DNA of 64,000 nucleotides from Circinella umbellata (taxonomy: Eukaryota > Mucoromycota > Mucoromycetes > Mucorales > Lichtheimiaceae). The notes below the pieces were generated by a model. It was not told the DNA's origin. It did not search any database and saw only the letters and a program-made list of their open reading frames with translations. The DNA lies in the NCBI GenBank assembly GCA_025093555.1, contig JAIWNF010000024.1:186001-250000 (forward strand), read 5' to 3'. Positions 47,727 through 52,528 of this stretch are shown here, piece by piece. Both the position numbers and the translations under genes were made by a program. The number at the start of each line of letters is the position of its first letter. The stretch's first letter is position 1.

Positions 47727-47830
47727 TACAGGTTTTATTTGCACCAAGCAGAAATAATTTTGCTTCAATGAGATTGAAATTTTGCGTTACCAGTTTTGCG
47801 TTTATGTTTTTGCGTCCTTTTTTGCGCTTT
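47727..47830 (+). repeat. Left terminal inverted repeat with TTTTGCG array
   Basis: About 70 bases align with the complement of the right end, including the shared blocks CCAAGCAGAAATAATTTTGC and ATTTTGCGTTAC. Beyond this, TTTTGCG recurs near 47790, 47808 and 47820, giving about five copies (one decayed to TTTTGCT) at 15-20 bp spacing, as expected for transposase binding sites. Confidence 0.8.
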
Positions 47831-48107
47831 TAATAATTATATATTAGCTTTTATTTTATTGAAAAGCTACATATAAAACAAAAAAAATCTACAGCAGCTT
47901 GTTACAAGATTTTTTCGAGGCAAGCATCAAAAAACAATTCCGCATGCTTGATCCATCCAAACACAGTCATCTTTAGTTACTCTTTTAACAGCTTCAGTTA
48001 TTCTCGGAGTCAATTGATCCTTCTCACTCGACTTGTCTCTTCAAACACCTACCGCGAAAATAATATTAAACAAAAACGCGGATGCAGTACTTTTTGAAGC
48101 ACGAGAT

Positions 48108-48500
48108 GCTTTGTATGAATAATTTTTGATGGCATTTCATTAGCATTAAGCGGGCTTCATAAACATCTTGTTGACAAAGCTCGTTTGTCTTTGAAAAAAC
48201 TGGAAAACTACCAATGGCTAGGGTGGCAGGCGTAACACTAGATAAATATACGAAGTTGATCCGTCAATGGAACAATGATCCTGAGTTTGACTTTGATAAT
48301 CGTCGTGTGTTTATCGATGAACCTGGTTTCAACCTCCATATACGTAGTAATTTTGGTCGATCCAAGAGAGGAAGTCCTGCTCGAGCTGTAATTCCTTCGC
48401 AACGTGGTGTATCGATTACTATCTTCGGTGATATCTGTGAGCTTGGAACAGCACTAATTACACTATTGCTTCCGTACTCTTTTTCGTTCTCTTCTCGAAC
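48108..48500 (+). pseudogene. DDE-type transposase fragment (IS630/Tc1-mariner-like)
   Basis: One frame gives SLALSGLHKHLVDKARLSLK, typical of the helix-turn-helix to linker part of fungal IS630-like transposases. After a frame change near 48215 the ORF continues through DNRRVFIDEPGFNLH, where the Asp of FIDE should be the first catalytic residue, then GRSKRGSPARAVIPSQRG and VSITIFGDICELG. It stops being transposase-like at about 48470. The second and third catalytic acidic residues are absent. So this is the broken 5' half of a transposase and cannot be active. Confidence 0.75.
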
Positions 48501-48578
48501 AATCTTTGACTCGTTGCATGCTTGTTCTCCTCTAAATATAACAAGTAAATATACACGTATATAAGTATAATGACAAAA

Positions 48579-50478
48579 TTACAATAAAGCAACCAAAAAT
48601 AATATGAAATATATTATAACTAGAGAAACACATACAACCGGAACCCTAAACTTTTTCCCACGGAAAACAATCTTGATAATATTTGCACAATCAGCCATAC
48701 AGTCCAATTCTGATTCATCTCCATCAGGCTTGTGAGTAATGTTCTTAATCCTATGGGAAACAAGCGGTAAACAATTAGATCACACTTTGCAAAATAACAA
48801 TAAATCAATAATGCAGCCACTTACAAGAATTCAAGTATATCGATAATTTGCAATTCTTGGGAATCAAAGTGAATTTGTATTTCTTCGACCTTCTTCATGG
48901 CTAAATATACAAGTGCTTCATGTTTTGGAGAACGAGTACAATCAGGAGATGTATCATTCAATATCTATATAATAAAGAATGGTTAGTTGGTATATGTGTT
49001 GCACAACGAACCCATCCATTCGTTTACTTACATTTATTACTCTATCAAAAATTTCATCTGATTTAGGCGTAAGTTTTACCATTACTATTGTCGGTTGATC
49101 GCATAAGCTTCTCTAACGAGAATCAGAAAATGAGCTTTTCATATAATGAGCTACCCAATCATGAGCGAGATCAATTACACCAGACAGTGTTATTCTAATA
49201 TAATGTATTTGTCAGTACCAAAAGTATAATCATGCTATATATTGAAAAAAAAACCCAATACCGTAATATTTGTTCTAATAAGTCATCCCATCCCGCCATC
49301 CCTCCATAATAGAAATGGACATACGATTCAAGTTGTCCAAATCCGTAACATACAATGCACGCATTGAGTCGATTATATCACTTGATGGCTCATATTGATG
49401 GTTGAGTTGCTAGAACAAATTGAACTCGAAATTAGTATACCATATACACCTAATTATAGCAACAACCGTCCAAATGTGCTTACCAACTTAAATGCCCAGC
49501 GGAAAAGTTCATGGCGAGCCAAATCCCCGCTTTTCAAGCTTGACTGTGCCTCCTCGAAATAGTCGGTCGTGGCATCATCAGTAGCGTCATCAATAATATC
49601 ATTGTTACGAACACTCAAACCACGGCCCCCTTCAAGAAGGTCCTCATCATCATGGACTTCATCATCACCACTCAAGACATCGCGGCTGCCATCACCATAG
49701 GATTCATTATTGTTATGCAAGATATCACGACCACCAAGATCATTATTATTGCGCTTATTTAATTTACTATTAATTGCGTGGGTTTCTTTGTTGAGCGTTG
49801 CAGTAACAAGTCTTGCCTAATAATAATAATAATAATAAATTATTTAGCACAACAAAAAGTGGATCAAAACACGCTGCTACAAGAAACGCGACAAGAAATA
49901 CAACACAAACAAAAAACAAACCTCTGCAATACGGCGTTCTTGGTTAGTAGCCGCATTCAATCTTTTTTTTTGCCAAAAGTCAGTGATCACTGGGTCACGG
50001 CTGGCAGCTATAAGGGGAAGAGAAACCGATTGTCAATATATATATATATATATATAAGTTACAACTATCGATCCATCAACTATTTTCCTTTGCACACGAC
50101 ATACCTTTCAAATCTCTTTTTAATCTGTTAATTCTTTTCATTCGGGCGCTTGATTTCAACAGAACTTTTGTCAAGGTTTTTAAATCATCAGAAAGTTCAA
50201 GATGAGCACTATATTTACTGATGGCAGGATTGTGTTTGACTGATGCTTCATCGAAATTATAAACGGTCCAATTACACCAGTCTTGCTCTATCCAAGAATC
50301 TTAATAAGATTGTTAGTTATCTGATTATCAGATAGAACAGCCAAGCAAGTATTATAATAGATATACCTGGAAGATTTAGCTCATCTCTTATTTCCTTGAT
50401 TTGATCGCTTTCATCGATACGCGCCTTTTTATTTCTTTCATTACAAGATGATGTTGTTTCTCGTTTTTTATTTGACAT
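48579..50478 (-). pseudogene. Intron-rich cargo-like gene, broken, family unknown
   Basis: Eight exons follow one another with good splice sites: 50478-50367, 50299-50105, 50007-49922, 49816-49484, 49409-49262, 49194-49032, 48964-48825 and 48750-48579. The product starts MSNKKRETTSSCNERNKKAR (basic, nuclear-signal-like), then has ASVKHNPAISKYSAHLELSD, RDPVITDFWQKKRLNAATNQ, an acidic Asp-rich region, DLAHDWVAHYMK and a final KPDGDESELDCMADC block. A tandem ATCCC duplication at 49285-49294 shifts the frame, and TAG at 49113-49115 stops exon six in frame. It resembles hypothetical proteins that I recall as repeated in Mucorales genomes; untested. It runs opposite to the transposase relic, and its 3' end stops about 80-100 bases from it. 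Function unknown. Confidence 0.6.
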
Positions 50479-50505
50479 AATGTATAAACTTTTGAGAGAT
50501 TGTTA

Positions 50506-50634
50506 GTGGACACAGTTGCAACATGGATAGCTATAGTTGACACGGTTGCAACATGGATAACTATAGTTGACACAGTTGCAACATGGATAGCTATAGTTGA
50601 CACAGCTGCAACATGGATAACTATAGTTGACACG
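50506..50634. repeat. 30-bp minisatellite, 4.3 units, 60-bp higher order
   Basis: Four consecutive 30-bp units (50506-50535, 50536-50565, 50566-50595, 50596-50625) plus a 9-base remnant. Each reads roughly GTTGACACAGTTGCAACATGG then ATAGCTATA or ATAACTATA. The last part alternates G/A between odd and even units, so the true repeat is a 60-bp dimer. It begins 28 bases upstream of the cargo pseudogene's start codon. It is open on both strands, giving false repetitive ORFs. Confidence 0.95.
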
Positions 50635-51619
50635 GAAAGAAAAATAAAAAAAAAAGGAGAGCGTGGGTTTCATGCATTTCACCACAGCATTATGATCTGG
50701 GAATAAATTTATGCTTGCGTGTTGTCAGAAGCTATGGCAACTACGAACATTTTCAAAACAGAGACCATTATTTTGTAGCTATTGACAACAAAATTTTATA
50801 TAATTCATACGCAATGTGCAAAGCATGATAAATAGTTCCAATAGCCAAGAAAACATAGATCATTGGTAATAAAATTCTTTTACGTGCATGTTATATCGAT
50901 TCGAATATTACCTGGTTTTTGGAAGTATAAGAAGTAAAGACACTACACGTTCGAATTTATATATAATATTACTAATGATAAAGTATAACAGACATGAAAA
51001 GAAAACCCACAAAAGACAGGTATTGTCCCAGCATATTATTATTTATGGAGAACCATGACAAGGAATTGAAATTGTAAGCTTTATTATATGAATAACTAAA
51101 AGATGTCGGTAATAATAGTAAAGAGGAAAGTGCCAATGTTCGTGGGAAGTGAGGCCAGTCTTGTACGAGACAGTGTTGGAAAAAAGAAAATTCAAACAAA
51201 TTCACCACCACGACCTGAAGGGTGTCCCCCGGTAGCTGACACTTTTCCATCCAAATAGCCATTTTATAACCCTATAAGTTAAAGCTAAGAAGATTTATAG
51301 TATCAGCGTGAGATGTTCGATTTTCTTATTTCTTGCGTAATTAAAAACCACCCCATCAAAGTCAAACATATTGCTTCTTGTTAGAATATAATAACACACA
51401 CAGATCTTACCTCAAGCTCTTTTTATTGAACGTTCACAAAATAAATTACACAGTCTGTAACTTGATACAGTCATATAATTAAATCATCAATCGGAAGCAC
51501 TGGTTCGATTAATACCTTGCGAATATAAAATAAAAAGTTGTTAATAAAAATGAAGGAAAGAAAAAGAAAAACTTATCTTAATCATCGTCCCCTGCACCAT
51601 ATTTGGCAAAAACCTATGC

Positions 51620-51871
51620 ATCGCGCTCTGGGGCTACGATACTTCCCATTCCTGTATGGCTGTGGTGAAGCAAATGCTTCATCGCAGCGACGGATGTTTC
51701 TCAGCTAAAGTTCCTCACGGATCAAGTTTGGAATACAAAATTGGTGGAATTCGGTTTTTCTGAATGTCATGACCACACCAACCTTGATGCTATTGAATAT
51801 TTGGGTTTTCCTTTATTCTCCACCAAGCAACAGCTGCATCAATTTTTAGAAAAACTTCTGTCGTCAATTCA
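51620..51871 (+). pseudogene. Probable LINE reverse-transcriptase scrap
   Basis: About 45 residues with AIEYLGFPLFSTKQQLHQFL followed by EKLLSSIQH fit the segment after the YADD motif in L1-like reverse transcriptases (the v-x-YLGfpl block). The preceding 100 bases are open in another frame. The sequence ends exactly where the right inverted repeat begins. Too short for certainty; no catalytic motif is present. Confidence 0.4.
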
Positions 51872-52000
51872 ACACGCAAAATTACTAGCGCAAATTTGTT
51901 TCTTAGGCAACGCAAAATCTTTAATGAGTAACGCAAAATTTTAATATCATTGACGCAAAATTATTTCTGCTTGGCGCAAATAATTTGGAAAAAACCTGTA
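51872..52000 (-). repeat. Right terminal inverted repeat with TTTTGCG array
   Basis: On the minus strand this reads TACAGGTTTTTTCC then the same sequence as the left end. CGCAAA-type motifs (complement of TTTGCG) occur near 51875, 51889, 51911, 51931, 51953 and 51975. It is better preserved than the left copy and probably shows the original repeat. Confidence 0.8.
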
Positions 52001-52095: not shown

Positions 52096-52528
52096 TTACA
52101 AGGTACTTGGAATGCCACCGCCACTAGACCCAATGTTACCCATATTATTGGCAGCTTGTTCGTCCATTTTTTTACCCAATAATTTTTGTACTGCTCCATA
52201 TTTAAATACACAACGATCAATGCATACACTTTCTCCCTTGTGTAAATCAGGTTCATGATAATGAGGTGGAATACATTTATTACGACACGTTGTCATGATT
52301 CTATTATAAGTATAGTTCATTCATATTTTATTATTATTTATTTATTTATAACTGACTGACGAACTAACTAACTAACTGACTGACTTGAATATCTTTCTTT
52401 TTGTGTGTGTGTGTGTGTGTGTTTTTTTACCTTTGATATAAGTCCATAAAAGCATCATACTCTTGTTCAGCTTGAACTAAATTTTCTGGATTGACATAAT
52501 TTTGGGTAAAACTACCACCCCAACTCAT
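52096..52528 (-). CDS. TIM10: Mitochondrial small Tim chaperone Tim10
   Basis: Two exons (52528-52431 and 52300-52096) encode 100 aa. The twin CX3C motifs are present: C38-x3-C42 (CRNKC) and C59-x3-C63 (CIDRC). Between and after them lie PHYHEPDLHKGESVCIDR and KYGAVQKLLGKK, diagnostic of Tim10 rather than Tim9, Tim8 or Tim13. Tim9-Tim10 hexamers escort hydrophobic precursors through the intermembrane space; the Cys pairs are oxidised by Mia40. The start Met opens MSWGGSFTQNYVNP. The intron contains an (AC)n run just after the donor. Confidence 0.95.
52401..52421. repeat. GT/AC dinucleotide repeat inside TIM10 intron
   Basis: About ten GT units (AC on the coding strand) start only about nine bases from the intron's 5' splice site. 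A similar shorter GT run occurs near 52930-52945 in the intergenic region. Confidence 0.9.

Follow-up and report, generated by a model that had tools for sequence, protein, structure and literature searches.

We analysed a window of 64,000 nucleotides in the Circinella umbellata genome (50.8 Mb; contig C128, bases 186001-250000; C-numbers below denote contigs of the same genome), in which two inverted, motif-bearing ends enclose a mosaic interior. The features are as follows, in window coordinates.

47727..47728, no strand: TA target dinucleotide on the left, read from the sequence
47729..51998, no strand: whole composite element, 4270 bp, CAGG...CCTG, defined by inverted arms, termini and TA flanks
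47729..47827, plus strand: left end, six TTTGC motifs starting at 47738, 47759, 47781, 47795, 47809 and 47821
47729..48069, minus strand: piece of the family 3' end (transposase C-terminus side), 84% identical to C145:857990-857662 and 80-82% to C127 and C172
48070..48446, plus strand: inverted middle fragment of a Tc1-like transposase gene, 87% identical to C145:856934-857309, 77-82% to C101, C207 (twice), C165, C175, C161, C21 and C90, and matched by tblastn to the C21 transposase
48447..50478, minus strand: multi-exon gene without its C-terminal part, from homologues P0001-P0008 and exon matches, truncated at 48447
50504..50633, no strand: tandem repeat with a 30-bp unit in about four copies, upstream of the cargo gene
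51542..51725, no strand: segment also found upstream of a related gene on C143 (C143:460526-460737; two pieces, 74 and 76% identical, in the same order and orientation)
51723..51875, plus strand: fragment of a LINE reverse transcriptase, 89.5% identical to C206 and C30
51874..51998, minus strand: right terminal repeat, six TTTGC motifs with minus-strand starts at 51980, 51959, 51937, 51916, 51894 and 51880
51999..52000, no strand: TA target dinucleotide on the right, read from the sequence

The boundaries can be read directly: CAGGTTTT starts at 47729, and CCTG finishes at 51998. Over 56 nt, the arms at 47735-47790 and 51928-51983 show 93% complementarity in inverted orientation, with 4137 nt between them. 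The arm match covers the outer 62 nt, similarity ends beyond about nt 62 inward, and the left arm is 9 nt shorter than the right end near its tip. From the tip inward, the motifs are spaced by 21, 22, 14, 14 and 12 bp in the left end and by 21, 22, 21, 22 and 14 bp in the right end. The original prediction of two inverted ends about 4.27 kb apart, each flanked by TA and carrying a motif array, is therefore borne out, with six TTTGC motifs per end; the spacing it gave, 15-20 bp, has to be corrected to 21-22, 14 and 12 bp. TA also lies outside 10 of 10 other ends that have the CAGG tip. Since TA is expected beside any Tc1-type end, its presence is no proof that the window ends form one unit. TATA stands on both sides of the element, with TA as the minimum duplication length readable, and a 2-bp TA duplication at one locus is indistinguishable from chance. 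The outer part of each window arm is matched almost as well by some other ends of the family. Both window arms have one substitution in common in the second array unit, absent from the other ends with this unit, which we regard as a weak point in favour of one unit. Directly to the right of the element, on the minus strand, lies an open frame (52096-52320) whose product may resemble a small Tim10-type protein.

We searched the genome with the left end (16 matches), the right end (45) and two other variants of the ends (40 and 28 matches). These were pooled by hand into at least 83 ends, including one added from a separate sequence comparison and excluding a weak match at C113:175250; the counts are lower bounds, as 40 of 73 candidates were scored for the right end and 40 of 82 for the 40-match variant. 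Within 8 kb, 52 of these ends make 26 adjacent pairs, and 31 are unpaired. All 26 pairs face inward, compared with 0.27 inward pairs expected by chance; two additional neighbouring pairs, spanning 20 and 23 kb, are oriented otherwise. Thirteen pairs measure 422-425 bp, one 1.15 kb and eight 1.64-1.9 kb, again as lower bounds from the pooled ends, and four long pairs measure 2.88, 3.57, 4.26 (the window copy) and 7.37 kb. Inward pairs 2.5-8 kb apart thus number 4, against a chance expectation of 0.19 for 83 ends. The expectation that the two ends recur as a pair holds, although their usual distance is not that of the window copy: it is 0.42 kb (13 of 26) or 1.6-1.9 kb (8 of 26). The 422-425 bp copies represent a MITE with the same TTTTGCG-type ends in at least 13 places (for example C133:230892-231316 and C13:257040-257463), nearly constant in length. 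The 1.15-kb copy on C172 consists of two 3' ends inverted to each other, 92.6% identical over 430 bp. On C175, an inverted repeat (C175:190816-195203) is centred on the 1.9-kb copy; the arms of this repeat, about 1.4 kb long and including the flanks of the copy, are 99.7% identical.

Transposase matches were found inside each of the eight 1.64-1.9 kb pairs in a search that scored 107 of 358 candidates, and none of the four long pairs has a full transposase. The best open frame, in the C21 copy, has 383 residues and a DDE_3 domain (PF13358, 3.6e-23), with catalytic spacing of 104 residues between the two D residues and 34 between D and E, that is, DD34E. Annotated Tc1-like proteins in Circinella minor are up to 93% identical to it. 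TA flanks, DD34E relatives and terminal inverted repeats identify the family as Tc1-like (DD34E), within the IS630-Tc1-mariner superfamily. The family ends and DD34E relatives confirm that this Mucorales genome contains an element of Tc1/mariner type that has motif arrays and an insert the size of a gene.

The arrays are a property of the whole family. For the motif counts and the end tree discussed below, 32 ends were chosen from the compared loci, 28 of them distinct. The distinct ends hold a mean of 4.79 TTTGC motifs per 135 nt, compared with 0.23 in mononucleotide shuffles; 21 of 28 have 5 or 6, and the remaining 7 have 1 to 4. Among 106 spacings, 72 fall at 21-23 bp and a further 21 at 14 bp; of the other 13, nine (36, 43 or 44 bp) correspond to one missing site. 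Two helical turns of DNA take about 21 bp, so most motif sites would share one face of the DNA, where the transposase may bind.

Inside, the window copy is a mosaic. Where a relative contains both the left piece and the adjoining transposase piece, the two match it on opposite strands. The transposase piece at 48070-48446 is 79-87% identical to sequence in C145, C101, C207 (twice), C165, C175, C161 and C21, eight other copies that substantiate the predicted DDE-type relic, and 70-77% identical to sequence in C90, C189 and C182. The window fragment itself scores 18.9 bits against Pfam DDE_3, under the cut-off of 28.6, and reading frames, Pfam and sequence comparison revealed no complete transposase between 47729 and 51998. 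At the right end, family sequence stops at the terminal repeat. As the left side is a 3' end and no family sequence continues past the right terminal repeat, the original 5' part is missing. The reading frames in C30 and C206 that match the segment at 51723-51875 contain GLRQGNLLSP and YADD, motifs that we take as a sign of a LINE reverse transcriptase. At three junctions, adjacent blocks share 2, 3 and 2 nt, and at 48446/48447 they share none. The four window junctions are spanned in no other compared locus (0 of 32, 12, 5 and 53 matches), and no other match genome-wide links two blocks of the composite; there is thus no evidence of movement after assembly. The 30-bp minisatellite of the window recurs at C166 (271834-272125), near the contig end at 272950.

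The largest block is a gene whose family has matches in Mucorales only, according to our protein search. It is identical to BDC45DRAFT_131886 of C. umbellata over the 271 residues of that partial annotation. Gene homology stops at 48447, exactly where transposase homology, which extends to 48446, takes over. Relatives in Rhizopus microsporus (496 aa) and Choanephora (610 aa) extend past this cut, which costs about the last 190 of 610 residues relative to the latter, and the window gene also shows an in-frame stop and a frame break against both. Given the truncation, the stop and the frame break, we conclude that it is a pseudogene. The nearest relative of the gene comes from Phascolomyces articulosus (83% identity across 65% of the query), and no high-identity donor or close copy was found in the C. 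umbellata genome. The paralogues there are distant: P0004, on C143, is 46% identical to the window gene, and six exon matches on C167 are 42-61% identical to the Choanephora relative. Because the gene and the segment at 51542-51725 match C143 in the same order, about 3.3 kb probably came in one piece. An annotated Rhizopus arrhizus protein, P0008, contains both a fragment of a DDE_3 transposase and the C-terminal part of this gene family; it reflects either an independent neighbourhood or a gene-model fusion.

The other long copies have different contents. C178:585825-593191 (7.37 kb) has arms 98.9% identical over 261 bp, 3' subterminal sequence at both ends and an interior 152-bp tandem repeat of 9.4 copies that are 98% alike. 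The arms of C141:93241-96817 are 97.8% identical over 139 bp, and those of C68:392854-395732 reach 81.6% identity in a gapped alignment of 179 bp, or 98.1% over 107 ungapped columns. Compared with the C161 copy, all three retain terminal and subterminal sequence, with no transposase beyond 75 bp. The only interior DNA common to long copies is a separate high-copy repeat of 883 bp in C68 and C141 (C68:393078-393960, with edges CACGG...CCGTG; 40 places among the matches listed). Each of these two copies also has a gene from a common family, and both genes point the same way; their proteins are 24-35% identical. Along its whole length, the C68 protein (278 residues, exons joined) matches the Rhizopus arrhizus protein P0129 at 79% identity, and partial relatives occur in Apophysomyces (79% over 55%) and Thamnidium (74% over 53%). 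A 118-residue part of it has 24 other matches in C. umbellata, at most 49% identical, and horizontal transfer of this cargo gene is possible, judging from these identities. C178 has no match to the C68/C141 gene, and three window exons that we tested match C143 only among the compared loci. The conserved gene content that the original prediction anticipated is consequently not seen: the window gene was not found in C68, C141 or C178, and the long copies differ in what they hold.

Overall, we consider it probable that the window contains one old, non-autonomous composite Tc1-like element of Pack-type or transduplicating character, which would depend on relatives to move. This is where the inward-paired ends with TA flanks, the transposase-bearing relatives of about 1.9 kb and the mosaic interior point, and, like Pack-TYPE transposons, the element is non-autonomous, with ends of a known family and coding DNA of non-transposon origin. 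That two independent, truncated insertions of the family flank resident DNA, with the host gene in its own place and the ends never one unit, appears somewhat unlikely. It would agree with the tree of 32 ends, in which the arms of C161/C175, C178, C141 and C68 group together and the window arms are not sisters; this tree rests on a short alignment with partly misplaced array units, and the arms of C145 are likewise not sisters despite the transposase between them. The Phascolomyces affinity of the gene, with no close C. umbellata copy found, and the match of gene and upstream segment to C143 in the same order, as in resident DNA, also fit two insertions. However, inward pairing at such a distance is not expected by chance, and the internal inversion joined gaplessly to a truncated gene, together with the LINE scrap abutting the right repeat, would need several extra events. 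The original prediction also called for empty sites: in this one genome, the joined flanks match only the two flanks of this locus and one further 35-nt stretch, giving no empty site.

The high-copy 883-bp repeat inside C68 and C141 indicates that nesting occurs within the family, and an ordinary 1.9-kb element could have had its middle replaced in place later by nested insertions, deletions and local rearrangement. We find this quite improbable for the window, where the insert is mainly a multi-exon gene and no known mobile element, the original 5' part is gone and the right end has no family sequence past the terminal repeat. A Tc1/mariner family specialised in carrying cargo, its gene content conserved, would suit the one gene family in C68 and C141, in the same orientation, and the closeness of the C68 protein to Rhizopus arrhizus relative to its C. 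umbellata matches. It seems very improbable, as the tested window exons match C143 only, C178 lacks the C68/C141 gene, the two cargo proteins are so divergent, and the window gene is truncated and broken; since the long copies differ in content, the pattern looks like gene capture rather than a fixed-cargo family. For the composite element that we favour, transposase from the 1.9-kb relatives would bind the repeated TTTTGCG sites and move the element by cut and paste at TA. The interior could have been built by template switching during excision-gap repair or by joint mobilisation of neighbouring ends, either of which would leave the retained ends enclosing an inverted piece of transposase together with a truncated gene and a scrap of a LINE. 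The cargo would then be a by-product that has since decayed.

In the Mucorales genomes that one study examined, Tc1/Mariner forms the largest group of transposons (PMC7928374). The Circinella family resembles Tc1-like DD34E elements, which abound in the Mucorales covered by that study and by PMC4054914, in its DDE_3 domain, the 34 residues from the second D to E, the TA flanks and the CAGx ends. The superfamily typically has TIRs of 12-28 nt (PMC4054914), whereas in the Circinella family the terminal repeats measure about 125-175 bp and mostly hold 5-6 motifs. In rice, Pack-Mariner elements are Tc1/Mariner elements that carry other coding DNA, and the proposed model has neighbouring insertions moving together; the example shown has 15-nt TIRs around an insert of 260-280 bp that is 93% identical to a rice gene (PMC8903248). 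The window copy differs from that example in its ends of about 125 bp with arrays, its kilobase insert and the lack of a near-identical donor among the sequences found. The transduplicating Tc1/Mariner repeat of Pyrenophora tritici-repentis, with 46 members (PMC3538342), is a case from a fungus in which the TIRs enclose a further ORF; in contrast to it, the four long Circinella copies differ from one another and have no full transposase. As regards its kind, the suggestion that such a family was not described before is therefore untenable, since gene-bearing Tc1/Mariner elements are already reported in rice (PMC8903248) and Pyrenophora (PMC3538342). The kind is known from plants and other fungi, and it is the ends that are unusual.

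The less usual features are the five or six motifs per end at spacings of 21-22 and 14 bp, and the C68 cargo. IR/DR-type Tc1 elements such as Sleeping Beauty have two direct repeats per end. Sleeping Beauty thus has several transposase sites per end, as predicted for the Circinella elements, and differs in having two repeats instead of the five or six Circinella motifs. It is conceivable, though in our view unlikely, that helically phased arrays let this lineage mobilise long composites (to 7.4 kb) and that a C68-like branch carries a conserved non-transposase gene which travelled with the element between Mucorales families. The regular arrays clearly predict several transposase-binding sites per end. 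The C68 cargo gene, which resembles a Rhizopus gene far more closely than it does its C. umbellata paralogues, most deserves further study. With paired copies of 0.42 to 7.4 kb that are statistically well supported, gene capture in an early-diverging fungus becomes open to study and dating.
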